NCBI RefSeq assembly: GCF_014486695.1 | Contig: NZ_JACTAB010000001.1 | Span: forward strand, 806,001 to 870,000 | Reading direction: 5' to 3' | Source of the DNA: Flavobacterium buctense | GTDB lineage: Bacteria > Bacteroidota > Bacteroidia > Flavobacteriales > Flavobacteriaceae | Length of the DNA stretch: 64,000 nucleotides | Shown: in pieces, positions 18,980 to 48,134 of the stretch | Layout of the letters: every line of letters starts with the position of its first letter | How positions within the stretch are numbered: position 1 is the stretch's first letter | Program-made: the position numbers and the translations under genes | The notes under the pieces: generated by a model | The model's input: only the letters and a program-made list of their open reading frames with translations | Database searches by the model: none | What the model was told of the DNA's origin: nothing

Positions 18980-19080
18980 CCCCTCTTAGCCCTGACAGTA
19001 ACGTAAAGCTCCCGATTCATCGGGACTTGCAGTGTATGGCAGGAATATGGACTGCAAAGTAACAAAAACTTTTCGCTTCT
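18980..19080 (+). repeat. Dispersed hairpin repeat, copy A
   Basis: Copy of a family also at 35336-35458, 48135-48216 and 53030-53127. It has TAGCCC near 18986, a central hairpin TCCCGAT/ATCGGGA (19010-19025), then GGAATATGGACTGCAAA and TTTTCGCTTC. It is the most degenerate of the four. Confidence 0.75.
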
Positions 19081-35335: not shown

Positions 35336-35458
35336 AAAAAGACAAAACCTAAATAGCCCCGATAGTAATGAAAACAAAAATGTCCCGATTTATCGGGACA
35401 TTTTGTTGTAATGTATAGCGGGAAAATGGATTGCAAAAATGCCCAAGCCATTCGCTCC
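35336..35458 (+). repeat. Dispersed hairpin repeat, copy B
   Basis: Left flank AAAGACAAAACCTAAATAGC continuing into CCCGAT, central 13-bp hairpin AAAATGTCCCGAT / ATCGGGACATTTT (35377-35404), right flank AGCGGGAAAATGGATTGCAA with ATGCCC and TTCGCTCC. It lies just after the mannosidase stop, in its direction. Confidence 0.85.
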
Positions 35459-43147: not shown

Positions 43148-43196
43148 AAAAAAGAGGAGATTGCTACAAAAGCTAAAGGAGAGTTTCTGCTTTAGC
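43148..43196 (-). promoter_or_regulatory. Expression-platform candidate after the metK aptamer
   Basis: On the minus strand GCTAAAG (43196-43190), the 3' end of the aptamer, can pair with CTTTAGC (43178-43172), which is followed by TTTT. Further down GCAATCTCCTCT (43164-43153) can pair with GATTGC (43218-43213) and AGAGGA (43236-43231) of the aptamer and is followed by six T. These folds exclude the aptamer fold. Confidence 0.5.
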
Positions 43197-43237
43197 ATTT
43201 TTTTACGAGGTTGCAATCAGTTCAAATTTTTCCTCTC
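43187..43237 (-). promoter_or_regulatory. SAM-II-like riboswitch aptamer in the metK 5' UTR
   Basis: Read on the minus strand: GAGAGG, AAAAATTTGAACTGATTGCA, ACCTCGT, then AAAAAAATGCTAAAGCAG. The SAM-II family has a short P1 helix closing a loop with UUUgA and UUGCAA, then an A-rich strand ending uGCUAAA; all of these are present. P1 is GAGG (43235-43232) with CCTC (43210-43207). The usual UGAUUU is altered to AAAUUU, so this may be a variant. It begins just after the predicted start site of the metK promoter. Confidence 0.65.
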
Positions 43238-43249
43238 ATTTTTCGAGTG

Positions 43250-43386: not shown

Positions 43387-43417
43387 TTGGTCAATTGAAA
43401 AAACATTCAGAAGTTTG
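43387..43417 (+). promoter_or_regulatory. Probable promoter of the metY leader
   Basis: TTG (43387-43389), 20 nt, GAAGTTTG (43410-43417); first two positions of the -7 box deviate from TAnnTTTG. It lies 23 nt before the first leader peptide. An inverted repeat TAAATAC-GTA-GTATTTA (43326-43342) lies upstream. Confidence 0.5.
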
Positions 43418-43440: not shown

Positions 43441-43509
43441 ATGAAATTAATTATTTGCAATATGTGTCGCATGATGTGGAAATCTCCGCAGAGGACGCTT
43501 ATGGCATAA
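43441..43509 (+). CDS. Met/Cys-rich leader peptide 1 of the metY attenuator
   Basis: A 22-codon ORF (ATG to TAA) with five Met and two Cys; residues 6-12 are CNMCRMM. Codons 16-18 (CCG CAG AGG) contain GCAGAGG (43488-43494), identical to the 3' arm of the terminator that follows. GCAGAGG can therefore pair with the terminator 5' arm CCTCTGC and block termination. The segment starts 12 nt after the last codon of the Met/Cys run. This is the layout of ribosome-mediated attenuation: a ribosome stalled for Met- or Cys-tRNA leaves the antiterminator free. The peptide itself has no expected function. Confidence 0.85.
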   Translation: MKLIICNMCRMMWKSPQRTLMA

Positions 43510-43536
43510 TTTTAAATTTAAAATATATCCATCAAA

Positions 43537-43564
43537 CCTCTGCCAACAGCAGAGGTTTTTTTTT
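43537..43564 (+). terminator. Attenuator terminator 1 of metY
   Basis: Stem CCTCTGC (43537-43543) / GCAGAGG (43549-43555), five-nt loop, then nine T. The competing antiterminator is GCAGAGG at 43488-43494, extended by ATGG (43501-43504) with CCAT (43529-43532). Confidence 0.9.
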
Positions 43565-43565
43565 A

Positions 43566-43640
43566 CTCTGAATTTAGTTCAGAGTCTAATGAAAAGTAAA
43601 AACAATAATTTAAAACAGATGCTGAAACGAGTTCAGCATA
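43566..43640. repeat. Short inverted repeats between attenuator 1 and attenuator 2
   Basis: Two hairpins: CTCTGAA-TTTAG-TTCAGAG (43566-43584) and GCTGAA-ACGAG-TTCAGC (43621-43637). The second resembles a dispersed flavobacterial palindrome (GCTGAAAC..GTTCAGCAT) as I remember it. It lies just ahead of leader 2 or within its longer form. Confidence 0.65.
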
Positions 43641-43645
43641 AAACA

Positions 43646-43747
43646 ATGAAAGTAACAGCAAAAAATATGATGATGAACAACCGTATGATGCACGTGATGA
43701 TGTGTTGTTGTATCGACATACCCTGTTACCAAAAGCGAAAGACGTAA
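43646..43747 (+). CDS. Met/Cys-rich leader peptide 2 of the metY attenuator
   Basis: A 33-codon ORF from the ATG at 43646; in-frame ATGs at 43619 and 43589 would lengthen it to 42 or 52 residues. It has eight Met and four Cys, with the core NMMMNNRMMHVMMCCCIDIP. Codons 28-30 (TAC CAA AAG) include CCAAAAG (43729-43735) and GAC follows at 43741. Both match the 3' arm of terminator 2 (CCAAAAGGAC) with a 5-nt insertion, so they can pair with its 5' arm. The segment begins 18 nt after the Cys run. It forms a second attenuator in series before metY. Confidence 0.87.
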   Translation: MKVTAKNMMMNNRMMHVMMCCCIDIPCYQKRKT

Positions 43748-43770
43748 TCAAAGTTTATATACTTGTTCTT

Positions 43771-43808
43771 AAAGTCCTTTTGGTAAGCCATCCAAAAGGA
43801 CTTTTTTT
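43771..43808 (+). terminator. Attenuator terminator 2 of metY
   Basis: Thirteen-bp stem AAAGTCCTTTTGG / CCAAAAGGACTTT with an 8-nt loop and seven T (43802-43808). It ends 49 nt before metY. The antiterminator partner is CCAAAAG at 43729-43735. Confidence 0.92.
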
Positions 43809-45151: not shown

Positions 45152-45613
45152 ATGAGCACAAAAACCGTAAACATAGTTGGTTATGCCAAAGAAAGCAATC
45201 AATTCGTAGTCAAAGCCCAAAACTTCGACATCAGAATTAGTAAAAATGATCAATTTCCTGAACTAGAAGGACCAAGTCCGATAGAATACATTTTGGCCGG
45301 TTATGCCGGTTGCATCAATGCTGTCGGGAAATTGGTAGCCAAAGAAAAAGGCATCGATTTAAAATCACTTCAAGTTGAAATCTCGGGAACCTTAAGTTTA
45401 GACAAATACCAGGGAAAAATTAGCGATGAAAGAGCCGGATTTAAATCTATTGAAGTTACGGTAAAGCCAACAACTGATGCGACTTTGGACCAATTAAAGG
45501 ATTGGTTAATCACCGTTGAAAACCGTTGCCCGGTTCAGGACAATTTGATCAATCCAACGCCGGTTTCTGTAGTGTTGGTTAAAGAATATGAAGCTACAGC
45601 AACAACGCTTTAA
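45152..45613 (+). CDS. OsmC family peroxiredoxin-like protein
   Basis: A 153-aa OsmC/Ohr-fold protein with the two redox cysteines in YAGCINAVGKLVAKEKG (about 50) and VENRCPVQDNL (about 130). OsmC proteins reduce organic hydroperoxides or handle reactive sulfur species. It starts 1 nt after metY, so it is co-translated with the sulfide-using enzyme; a role in removing persulfide or other reactive sulfur is a reasonable inference but untested. Its last codons contain TGAAGctACAGC, complementary to the terminator upstream of metX. Confidence 0.92.
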   Translation: MSTKTVNIVGYAKESNQFVVKAQNFDIRISKNDQFPELEGPSPIEYILAGYAGCINAVGKLVAKEKGIDLKSLQVEISGTLSLDKYQGKISDERAGFKSIEVTVKPTTDATLDQLKDWLITVENRCPVQDNLINPTPVSVVLVKEYEATATTL

Positions 45614-45760: not shown

Positions 45761-46762
45761 ATGAAAAAGTTGGAAAAAATAGTTTTGTTCAATTTTAGTT
45801 TGGAAAACGGAAAACAACGCCCTTATCTTCCGTTATTTTATCAAACTTTTGGTCAGCCCATTAGTACCGCGCCGGTCGTGGTAGTCAATCACGCATTAAC
45901 AGGCAATTCCAATGTCACCGGAGAAAACGGCTGGTGGAACGATATAATCGGTGAAGAAAAAATCATCGATACCAATCATTTCACGGTAATCGCTTTCAAC
46001 ATTCCGGGAAACGGTTACGATGACAACTTCGGTAATTTGATTTCCACTTACAAAGATTTTACCATTCGCGATGTCGCCAGAATTTTTTGGGAAGGTTTAG
46101 ATTTCCTCAAAATCGAACAAGTTTTTGCGGTTATCGGAGGAAGTTTAGGCGGAGCAGTTGCGTGGGAAATGGCGGTTTTGAAACCGAATGCTGTTCAAAA
46201 TCTAATTCCAATTGCCACCGATTGGAAAGCCACCGATTGGGTCATCGCCAATGTCCTAATCCAAGACCAAGTATTGAATAATTCTGATGATCCAATCGCA
46301 GATGCCAGATTGCACGCTATGTTGTTGTATCGAACACCTCAATCGATTAACCAACGTTTTCAAAGAAGCAAATTCAATGATTCCTCAGTGTTTCAAATCG
46401 AGAATTGGTTGGCCAATCACGGCGTAAAACTCAAAAACCGCTTTCGGTTATCGGCTTACAAATTGATGAACCACTTGCTCAAAACCAATGACATTACTCG
46501 TGACCGAAATGATTTTTTGGCTCTAGCCAAAGCCATTCAAGGAAACATTCACGTAGTCGCTGTTGATACTGATTATTTTTTTATTCCGGATGAAAATCGG
46601 GAAACGGTTGAAAACTTAAAACCGATAAAAGAAAATGTCTTCTATCACGAAATAAAATCCATCCACGGACACGATGCTTTTTTAATCGAATTCGAACAAT
46701 TAGCCCAAATTTTATCACCCATTTTTAACAAACAAAAACAACAAACTTATGTCAGCGCTTAG
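45761..46762 (+). CDS. metX: Homoserine O-acetyltransferase (MetX, alpha/beta hydrolase fold)
   Basis: Acetylates homoserine with acetyl-CoA, the first committed step to methionine; its product is the MetY substrate. The 333-aa alpha/beta-hydrolase shows NHALTGNSN (oxyanion region), the nucleophile Ser in VIGGSLGGAVAWEM, the Asp in VDTDYFF and the His in HGHDAFLIEF. It is somewhat shorter than many MetX proteins. hom overlaps its end by 14 nt, so the two consecutive enzymes are coupled. Confidence 0.93.
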   Translation: MKKLEKIVLFNFSLENGKQRPYLPLFYQTFGQPISTAPVVVVNHALTGNSNVTGENGWWNDIIGEEKIIDTNHFTVIAFNIPGNGYDDNFGNLISTYKDFTIRDVARIFWEGLDFLKIEQVFAVIGGSLGGAVAWEMAVLKPNAVQNLIPIATDWKATDWVIANVLIQDQVLNNSDDPIADARLHAMLLYRTPQSINQRFQRSKFNDSSVFQIENWLANHGVKLKNRFRLSAYKLMNHLLKTNDITRDRNDFLALAKAIQGNIHVVAVDTDYFFIPDENRETVENLKPIKENVFYHEIKSIHGHDAFLIEFEQLAQILSPIFNKQKQQTYVSA

Positions 46763-47849
46763 AATCAATATAGTCCTTTTCGGTATCGGAAATGTCGGTA
46801 GTACTTTAGTCAACCAAGTTATTGAAAGTCAAAAATTCTTCCTTGAGAAGAAGAATATCGATTTGAGATTTCCCATCATCACCAATTCCACTTTAGCTTT
46901 CTTCGAAAAAGACGGTCTCAAAAACCAATGGGAAGCCAATTTCGCCCAATCCGCCATTCCGTTCAGAATCGAAGACATCATCGAATATGTTCAAGAACAA
47001 CAATTGGAAAACCTGATTGCTGTGGATGCCACTGCCAGTCAGGACATCATCAAAAATTATATTCCGCTTATCCAAAACGGTTTCAATATCGTCGCCGCCA
47101 ATAAAAAAGCGAATACATTGCACTTCGACTTCTACAAAGAACTGAGAAGAAACCTCAAGAAACACGACAAAACATTTCTTTACGAAACCAATGTCGGAGC
47201 CGGTTTACCGGTCGTTCAAACAATAAACGACTTGCACTTTTCGGGCGAAGAAATCACTAAAATCCGTGGCGTATTCTCGGGTTCGCTGAGTTATATCTTT
47301 AATAGATTTTCTTCCGAAGACTTACCGTTTTCCAAAATCTTACTCGATGCGGAGAAAAACGGCTATACCGAACCCGATTCCCGTGATGATTTATCCGGAC
47401 ACGACGTCGCCAGAAAACTATTGATTCTCGCCCGAGAAATCGAACAGGAATTTGAATTCACCGATATCAAAATAGAATCCCTTTTGCTTCCAAACCTAAA
47501 TGAAAAAAGCGCCAAATCGGAATATGCAGTCAACAAGCAATTGTTTGACAAACCGTTCCAAATTGCCAAAATTACCCAAGCCGATAACCATGTCTTGCGC
47601 TATGTGGGCGAATTAGATGTCAAGACCAAGCAACTAGAAGTAAAACTGATTTCAGTTCCGAAGACTTCAGCGCTTGGCCAACTCAAAGGCGCCGACAATC
47701 TTATTGAAATTTACACCAAATCCTATGGCGAAATCCCAATCGTCATTCAAGGCGCCGGAGCCGGAAAACAGGTTACGGCTCGTGGCGTTTTGACTGATAT
47801 TCTCAAAGTCGCCGAGAAAATCAAAATCAAAGAAGCGATTTGGTTATAA
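46749..47849 (+). CDS. hom: Homoserine dehydrogenase (monofunctional)
   Basis: Reduces aspartate semialdehyde to homoserine with NAD(P)H. The 366-aa protein has an N-terminal Rossmann fold (INIVLFGIGNVGSTLVNQV), the catalytic-region signature GVFSGSLSYIFNRF, and DGYxEPD-like NGYTEPDSRDDLSGHDVARKLLIL. There is no aspartokinase domain and no C-terminal ACT domain, so it differs from ThrA-type fusions and may serve methionine mainly. It overlaps metX by 14 nt and is followed by a strong terminator. Confidence 0.94.
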   Translation: MSALRINIVLFGIGNVGSTLVNQVIESQKFFLEKKNIDLRFPIITNSTLAFFEKDGLKNQWEANFAQSAIPFRIEDIIEYVQEQQLENLIAVDATASQDIIKNYIPLIQNGFNIVAANKKANTLHFDFYKELRRNLKKHDKTFLYETNVGAGLPVVQTINDLHFSGEEITKIRGVFSGSLSYIFNRFSSEDLPFSKILLDAEKNGYTEPDSRDDLSGHDVARKLLILAREIEQEFEFTDIKIESLLLPNLNEKSAKSEYAVNKQLFDKPFQIAKITQADNHVLRYVGELDVKTKQLEVKLISVPKTSALGQLKGADNLIEIYTKSYGEIPIVIQGAGAGKQVTARGVLTDILKVAEKIKIKEAIWL

Positions 47850-47964: not shown

Positions 47965-47987
47965 CAGCGTTCATAAACTTATTGTTC

Positions 47988-48088
47988 GTTATCACGAAAG
48001 CTGGAGGGAATAGACCCGTTGAAAGCTTAGCAACCCTTTGCCAAAAGAAGGTGCTACATTCTATCTCGATTTATCGAGAGCAGATAAC
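47988..48088 (+). promoter_or_regulatory. SAM-I (S-box) riboswitch upstream of metH
   Basis: P1 is GTTATC (47988-47993) with GATAAC (48083-48088). The core reads AAAGCTGGAGGGAATAGACC, then TTGAAAGC, TTAGCAACC, AAGGTGCTACATTC, matching the conserved S-box order (kink-turn GGAGGGA, GCAACC, AAGGUGC). P4 is TCTCGAT/ATCGAGA (48064-48079). It should bind SAM and repress the metH-metF operon. The ORF starts about 200 nt later. Confidence 0.9.
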
Positions 48089-48134
48089 CCCGAGAATTCT
48101 TCTCACTTTCACGATAACATACTATAATTTTTTA
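48089..48134 (+). promoter_or_regulatory. Possible expression platform after the SAM-I aptamer
   Basis: CTTTC-AC-GATAAC (48106-48118) is complementary to GTTATC-AC-GAAAG (47988-48000) at 11 of 13 positions, and repeats the P1 3' strand GATAAC. Pairing would disrupt P1. A run of six T follows at 48128-48133, without an adjacent GC-rich stem. Confidence 0.5.

Follow-up and report, generated by a model that had tools for sequence, protein, structure and literature searches.

The region upstream of metY in Flavobacterium buctense, lying within a stretch of 64,000 nucleotides (the window), raises the question of whether this gene is controlled by two ribosome-mediated transcription attenuators in series, each reading methionine and cysteine codons in a short leader ORF, as an initial annotation of the sequence had claimed. 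That annotation described a 22-codon ORF with the residues CNMCRMM (LP1), a terminator with arms CCTCTGC/GCAGAGG and nine T (T1), an ORF of 33-52 codons with MMM, MM, MM and CCC runs (LP2) and a second terminator with a 13-bp stem and seven T (T2). Inspection of the letters placed all four where it had put them, three of the seven T of T2 being shared with its stem. It had also reported, inside each ORF, a copy of the 3' arm of the following terminator that could act as an antiterminator; both copies are present (GCAGAGG at 43488-43494 and CCAAAAG at 43729-43735), but the segment given for the second was too short, the full pairing being that of TTACCAAAAG with CTTTTGGTAA. Each terminator lies at most 25 nt 3' of the stop codon of its leader ORF. 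LP1 with T1 and LP2 with T2 are referred to as modules 1 and 2, and the features of the locus are as follows.

43410-43417, forward strand: possible -7 promoter box upstream of LP1, GAAGTTTG, weak
43441-43509, forward strand: LP1, leader ORF 1, 22 codons, encoding MKLIICNMCRMMWKSPQRTLMA, control codons C6, M8, C9, M11 and M12
43475-43490, forward strand: 1:2 protector hairpin of module 1, TGTGGA / TCCGCA, predicted to mask the start of the antiterminator segment
43488-43494, forward strand: region 2 of module 1, GCAGAGG, antiterminator 5' strand within LP1
43501-43504, forward strand: second antiterminator segment in the LP1 tail, ATGG, pairing with CCAT at 43529-43532
43529-43532, forward strand: partner of the LP1 tail, CCAT, immediately 5' of T1
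43534-43564, forward strand: T1, intrinsic terminator 1, CCTCTGC at 43537-43543, GCAGAGG at 43549-43555, nine T at 43556-43564
43589, forward strand: start of the longest LP2 frame, 52 amino acids, an in-frame alternative start
43646-43747, forward strand: LP2, leader ORF 2, 33 codons from the inner ATG, encoding MKVTAKNMMMNNRMMHVMMCCCIDIPCYQKRKT, with MMM, MM, MM and CCC
43726-43735, forward strand: region 2 of module 2, TTACCAAAAG, antiterminator 5' strand within LP2
43771-43808, forward strand: T2, intrinsic terminator 2, 13-bp arms at 43771-43783 and 43792-43804, seven T at 43802-43808
43777-43786, forward strand: antiterminator 3' strand of module 2, CTTTTGGTAA, T2 arm plus loop
43858-45150, forward strand: metY, O-acetylhomoserine aminocarboxypropyltransferase/cysteine synthase family (TIGR01326, 641.8 bits, above cut-off)
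45152-45613, forward strand: OsmC-like gene, presumed metY operon
45761-46762, forward strand: metX-like gene, presumed metY operon, match below the NCBIfam curated cut-off
46749-47849, forward strand: homoserine dehydrogenase-like gene, presumed metY operon, match below the NCBIfam curated cut-off
43182-43241, reverse strand: SAM-II riboswitch before metK (Rfam)
47986-48090, forward strand: SAM-I riboswitch before metH (Rfam)
18984-19050 and 35351-35429: Flavo-1 RNA, two Rfam matches of unknown function

The four genes from metY to the homoserine dehydrogenase-like gene are probably co-transcribed, judging from their spacing. The divergent gene is metK (NCBIfam, above cut-off), and downstream of the presumed operon lie metH, split in two genes of which the first falls below the NCBIfam cut-off because it is partial, and then metF. 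With SAM-II at metK and SAM-I at metH, attenuators at metY would thus bring three kinds of control to one methionine cluster. The sequence TANNTTTG, which we take to be the -7 promoter box consensus, occurs within 60 nt upstream of LP1 at 39 of 75 loci, compared with 5.7% of background stretches; the box of the window itself deviates from it. Between T1 and LP2 lie two palindromes, ACTCTGAATTTAGTTCAGAGT at 43565-43585 and ATGCTGAAACGAGTTCAGCAT at 43619-43639, which look like interspersed repeats.

In the proposed mechanism, transcription would begin at a putative promoter upstream of LP1. With charged Met- and Cys-tRNA plentiful, the ribosome would reach the LP1 stop codon and cover region 2 (GCAGAGG plus tail), leaving region 3 (CCTCTGC) to pair with region 4, and T1 would halt transcription; were LP1 not translated, the 1:2 hairpin would mask region 2 with an identical outcome at T1. 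When Met or Cys is scarce, the ribosome would stall on the Met/Cys codons of LP1, the last of which would leave region 2 just beyond the stalled ribosome's reach. Region 2, being free, would then pair with region 3 and the LP1 tail with the bases before T1, so that T1 is blocked and the polymerase continues, after which LP2, its region 2 TTACCAAAAG and T2 would repeat the decision before metY. Cellular translation, termination and antitermination, the starvation signal and the series logic are all deduced here from nucleotide sequence. Control of metY by two such attenuators in series is nonetheless considered very likely, and the initial annotation's central claim is supported by three lines of comparative evidence: codon runs that keep their frame, terminators and antiterminators that change together, and sulphur genes downstream.

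Conservation was assessed in 80 named metY loci from one scan, mostly Flavobacterium and hence close relatives rather than independent cases, and in 109 other upstream regions of the family, drawn from the 201 genomes, out of 299, in which metY was matched, and including one region from the same genus. The 109 comprise 29 loci listed and 80 from further down the ranking, many entries with an internal stop having been skipped. A module was called from Met/Cys density together with a terminator after the ORF, with terminator type assigned by arm motif, T1 of L112 added by hand, and L095 and L142, which are SAM-I or other loci with chance Met/Cys-dense ORFs, excluded from the leader counts. At least one complete module was present in all 80 named loci: 61 have LP1 with T1 behind it, 68 have LP2 with T2 behind it and 49 have both, leaving 31 with one complete module only (module 1 alone in 12, module 2 alone in 19). 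In the other regions the corresponding counts were 13, 9 and 9 of 109, so that leaders occurred in 13, nine with both modules and four with module 1 only. In the comparison across the family that the initial annotation had proposed, the Met/Cys codon runs recur in relatives, and terminators and antiterminators change together. F. psychrophilum (L036) was scored as module 2 only, since its LP1-like ORF has fewer Met/Cys and falls below the density threshold. Met and Cys together make up 27% of LP1 residues and 37% of LP2 residues, with means of 3.9 Met and 2.3 Cys in LP1 and 6.0 and 4.5 in LP2, and the two codon types are mixed in both.

Several of the named loci had further peculiarities. At 12 of them (L040-L042, L045, L046, L048-L050, L056-L058, L074) a short ORF that ends in NPRRCCRMC[SC] takes the place of module 2, about 60 nt upstream of metY and with no terminator, possibly a Cys-sensing leader acting on translation. 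A small ORF of about 60 amino acids (MNTLDINTIAF...) lies between T2 and metY in L073, L075 and similar loci, and in L234 and L245. The contigs of L003 and L010 are titled Bifidobacterium breve and Nitrotoga, yet carry a Flavobacterium-type metY, and were probably mis-binned.

The same leaders also precede genes other than metY. A module 1 model searched against 395 genomes of the phylum gave matches in 84 at E up to 0.01, many of them weak; the weak matches inspected (e.g. L253, L268, L270, L271, L274) lacked a Met/Cys leader, and only strong ones were counted. Strong matches (E < 1e-8) were found in 22 genomes, 21 of them in the same genus and the remaining one (G181) elsewhere in the family. 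Across the 22 loci inspected (L231-L252), the next gene was metY in seven, a TonB-dependent receptor gene in seven, cysE-cysK in two, an OsmC-like or homoserine dehydrogenase-like gene in three and the metX region in three, so that the genes behind module 1 relatives are mostly sulphur genes. The cysE-cysK cases (L237, L238) carry module 1 alone; CysE scores above the EpsC cut-off and cysK is a cut-off fragment, while metX was recognised only by likeness to the MetX of the window, from a fragment without a Pfam match. Module 1 stands upstream of a TonB-dependent receptor at L240-L243, L246-L248 and L275, the last being the same place as L242 and confirmed by Pfam; this is a position that would suit a sulphur-compound receptor. 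A leader related to module 1 but poorer in Met/Cys codons occurs upstream of the metX region at L263-L267, L272, L273, L277 and L278, with a second short ORF in several of these loci. Modules 1 and 2 separate in evolution.

Among the sulphate-assimilation genes, cysH-cysD-cysN at L269 is preceded by a Met/Cys leader with another region 2 and terminator (CAAGAGG / CCTCTTG). Of the genus's 30 cysH loci, Met/Cys leaders were found at four (L281-L284), in tandem at three; the other 26 lacked a Met/Cys leader with terminator directly upstream of cysH. Eight longer cysH upstream stretches, from seven of those 26 genomes and from G127, contained no Met/Cys-dense ORF, while six of the eight had an ORF of a type identified as Rrf2 in one, and that of L318 had no ORF of 110 amino acids. 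A search for cysH in the genome of the window returned no match, although an empty answer of this kind proves little. In a genome from another family of the phylum, two Met/Cys-dense ORFs (NTMMMAMCMCMN..., SMSCLMYCCCCC) lie upstream of a sulphate-binding protein gene (L254, 1354-1943), and no match to region 2 was seen there.

These distributions bear on what a series of two gates would do. The initial annotation held that metY is read only when ribosomes stall at both peptides. This follows from the layout, and an AND gate may operate where both modules are present; it would not be universal, since the 12 named loci with module 1 only and the 19 with module 2 only mean that a double gate is not needed in the genus. 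The alternative is that the gates are redundant, both sensing the same shortage, with the pair deepening repression or steepening the response. The mixing of Met and Cys codons in both ORFs favours redundancy, as do the one-module loci, where a single gate is evidently enough for some lineages; the greater Met and Cys content of LP2 than LP1 and the Cys-heavy modules that can precede cysH (L281) hint instead at different weightings, in both cases from small numbers. Redundant gates are given an even chance of being correct. It is very unlikely that a Met/Cys-rich nascent peptide is itself the sensor, binding a metal or becoming oxidised on the ribosome and stalling it independently of tRNA charging. 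Cys/Met-rich peptides can bind copper, and metal-sensing leader ORFs are known in other systems; the order and number of Met and Cys here vary freely with no fixed CxxC-like motif, Cys is entirely lacking from LP2 of L102, and the genes downstream serve sulphur amino acids.

Translation of the leaders is favoured by alignments A1 and A2, which cover 38 of the 75 detected module 1 copies and 36 of the 78 module 2 copies, hand-picked for diversity. Gap runs inside the codon runs were multiples of three in 69 of 69 cases in A1 and 130 of 131 in A2, or 199 of 200 together. Frame is lost 3' of the codon run in module 1, where, of 75 loci, 44 have region 2 in one frame with respect to the ORF and 31 have it in another, indicating that nucleotides rather than residues are conserved there. 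At 68 of 75 loci, the last Met/Cys codon of module 1 begins 14-15 nt 5' of region 2; given the size of the ribosome footprint, a ribosome with this codon in its A site would have its leading edge at roughly that point. In module 2 the spacing is variable, the last control codon lying 3-19 nt from region 2 (L010, L016, L019 and L027 are missing from this analysis, their region 2 being unmatched by the patterns). Were the short ORFs functional small proteins that the terminators regulate, some conservation of residues would be expected, and some LP1 residues are indeed kept between genera (the C/N-M run, W and the A..IV tail); but the LP1 tail shifts frame while its nucleotides stay constant, lengths and the residues beyond the codon runs vary, and certain LP2 end before region 2 (L030), which makes this explanation very unlikely indeed.

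Attenuation predicts that region 2 and the terminator arms change together. In module 1, region 2 paired better with the terminator 5' arm of its own locus (-12.65) than with swapped arms (-11.61, n=75), and the difference was larger in a divergent subset (-13.06 versus -10.35, n=26). Module 2 behaved similarly (-12.87 versus -11.38, n=78; divergent subset -13.72 versus -10.76, n=25), and in none of these comparisons was any permutation (5000 and 20000) as good. The observed region 2 beat 95% of synonymous recodings at 58 of 75 loci in module 1 and 49 of 78 in module 2. A three-way change is visible at one site, where region 2 carries A, C or G and both terminator arms are altered alongside, and matched variants of region 2 and terminator include GCAGCG / CCGCTGC (L102), GCAAGGGC / GCCCTTGC (L192) and GCAGGG / CCCCTGC (L093).

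Counts of pairing within named structures, made on hand-picked alignment rows, gave the same picture with some unevenness. T1 was paired in 99.4% of 339 cells, with 23 both-side changes against 5.3 in shuffles, and T2 in 99.7% of 360 cells, with 36 against 10.7, its number of pair types showing no excess (394 of 500 shuffles as high). Antiterminator 1 was paired in 99.6% of 225 cells, with nine both-side changes against 1.2 shuffled, and its numbers of pairs with both-side changes and of pair types were equalled by 12 and 59 of 500 shuffles. For antiterminator 2 the values were 88.2% of 280 cells and six both-side changes against 1.1, with no excess in pairs with both-side changes or in pair types (121 and 244 of 500 shuffles as high). 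On pairing, spacing and recodings, module 2 is thus the weaker of the two.

Two additional elements were found in module 1. The LP1 tail through its stop codon paired better with its own pre-T1 bases (-4.05) than with swapped ones (-3.30) in the 71 of 75 loci that could be used, and none of 20000 permutations equalled this (divergent subset, n=25, -5.18 versus -3.89, 14 of 20000). The loci L023, L038, L043 and L069 are absent from this comparison because their region 2 was unmatched by the patterns. The 1:2 hairpin likewise favoured its own halves (-5.74 versus -5.15 kcal/mol, n=75; divergent subset, n=26, -5.40 versus -4.09; 0 of 20000 in each), and with it module 1 comprises the complete set of regions 1-4 known from textbook attenuators. 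That base pairing keeps the two gates fully independent was supported for module 2, where the own pairing was the stronger at 59 of 59 loci, and unsupported for module 1, whose leader segment can form a fairly good pairing with T2 as well (-10.88), its own T1 being stronger at only 37 of 59.

Similar features could in principle arise by chance in AT-rich DNA. Dinucleotide shuffling of the leader, repeated 2000 times, never produced an ORF with at least seven Met/Cys per nine residues or a pair of ORFs with at least five, and the two folds exceeded 200 shuffles in stability (z -3.63 and -4.82); LP1 and LP2 were both found again in relatives. No Rfam family matched the metY leader of the window at gathering scores, and with a permissive threshold no SAM or T-box family was listed; the best match, Phe_leader, reached 23.8 bits where the gathering score is 55 (E 0.12) and was discarded. 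The candidates inspected for a second copy in the same genome (L216 and L219 for module 1, L224 and L225 for module 2) proved to be plain terminators after genes without adjoining Met/Cys ORFs.

The attenuators also appear to occupy a position that in many relatives holds a riboswitch. SAM-I was found in 89 of the 109 other upstream regions and leaders in 13, with both in none and neither in seven, and SAM-I was found in 0 of the 80 named loci. The tally of 89 combines 37 Rfam-confirmed regions with 52 detected by an HMM built from those 37 matches; of two sets of 20 regions submitted to Rfam alone, 19 and 18 had SAM-I. When the 13 leader loci and the seven loci with neither were searched with Rfam, SAM-I was found upstream of metY in none, the sole SAM-I matches among those 20 (L089, L093) both lying downstream of metY. 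One of the seven, L167, has a further sensor at metY, a SAM-II at 91-150 on the reverse strand, in the orientation of metY and about 70-130 nt upstream of it.

On a tree of 69 MetY proteins, constructed without L202, the leader and SAM-I states require at least six changes, five of them forced by well-supported branches, and a single clade of leader-bearing MetY was rejected (p-AU 2e-11). The tree leaves both directions of exchange, so that leaders may have taken the place of SAM-I or SAM-I that of leaders. Distant carriers share LP1 nucleotides, and this likeness suggests descent or transfer, not repeated invention. The distribution indicates that the metY leaders stand in for the riboswitch carried by many relatives. 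That the structures are merely ordinary terminators of upstream or antisense transcripts beside chance Met-rich ORFs is extremely unlikely, for although plain terminators do account for the second matches inspected in the same genome, the shuffles, the conservation, frame-keeping and co-variation, and the mutual exclusion with SAM-I all oppose it.

The enzymes behind the attenuators are themselves poor in sulphur. Both MetY and the homoserine dehydrogenase-like protein are devoid of Cys and of internal Met, and the presumed operon's four products together contain five Met/Cys in 1282 amino acids, compared with a mean of 2.61 per 100 across 49 ORFs of the window. The MetY proteins of SAM-I relatives are nearly as poor (means of 0.17 Met and 0.03 Cys, n=35), which makes this a trait of the enzyme rather than of the attenuator. 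A joint reading of these observations, to be held tentatively and with slightly less than even confidence, is that a modular family of Met/Cys leader-peptide attenuators runs part of sulphur metabolism in Flavobacterium and some relatives and has been exchanged with SAM-I before metY, in either direction, several times; that the tandem arrangement would form an AND gate on the charging of Met-tRNA and Cys-tRNA; and that the MetY and homoserine dehydrogenase so released, nearly free of Met and Cys, could be made during that very shortage.

If metY is indeed controlled by such attenuators, methionine would join the amino acids sensed by leader-peptide attenuation, complete four-region attenuators would extend to a phylum in which they have been little studied, and a natural series of two attenuators on one gene, with one-module relatives, would become available. 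The exchange with SAM-I at metY raises the question of why tRNA charging rather than S-adenosylmethionine should be sensed, and the co-varying parts pinpoint the exact bases for testing.

Classical attenuators (trp, his, phe, thr, leu/ilv) combine a short ORF rich in codons for the pathway product with regions 1-4 that form 1:2, 2:3 and 3:4 alternatives. The metY leader resembles them in its short ORF of pathway codons, its regions 1-4, its intrinsic terminator and the biosynthetic gene downstream, and the his/trp/phe-type principle invoked by the initial annotation is right in principle. It differs in that the codons are those of Met and Cys, in having two complete units in series on one gene, and in its occurrence in Bacteroidota at the place of the relatives' SAM-I riboswitch. 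In the main texts of the open literature searched, no description of a Met or tandem Met/Cys leader attenuator was recognised; the initial annotation knew of no tandem Met/Cys attenuator described in Bacteroidota. The available text of one report states that leader peptides were then known only from Proteobacteria and Actinobacteria, besides its own Firmicutes hisS case (PMC2965389). Cys-rich leader ORFs of Actinobacteria share the runs of Cys codons before cysteine operons and differ, as far as the accessible parts of these sources describe, in the lack of a conserved terminator hairpin and of Met codons; for methionine operons, the same survey reported no conserved RNA structures upstream (PMC1262725, PMC9094748). 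The uORFC-8-2 motif before cysS in Rhodobacterales is similar in its Cys-codon leader ORF, hairpins, U run and proposed ribosome-mediated attenuation, whereas the portion of the source consulted describes a single unit with two Cys codons, at another gene and in another phylum (PMC8632094). SAM riboswitches before metY (SAM-I, SAM-II, SAM-V) share the gene, the place and control by the methionine pathway, but bind S-adenosylmethionine, and the metY leader gives no Rfam match at gathering score; for the SAM-V motif before metY, the available text mentions one case in Psychroflexus torquis (PMC2704228). A transcriptome study of F. psychrophilum reported clues for leader-peptide attenuation before amino-acid operons, with Met/Cys unnamed in the part available (PMC9723704), and is a possible predecessor of the present finding. 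A likeness in layout, two leader ORFs with separate attenuators on one gene, is seen in the Salmonella mgtCBR leader, whose tandem ORFs each lie within an attenuator and, according to the text available, respond additively to ATP and proline (Lee and Groisman 2012, PMC3641672); the metY leader has this same layout, with both ORFs rich in Met and Cys and each followed by its own intrinsic terminator.
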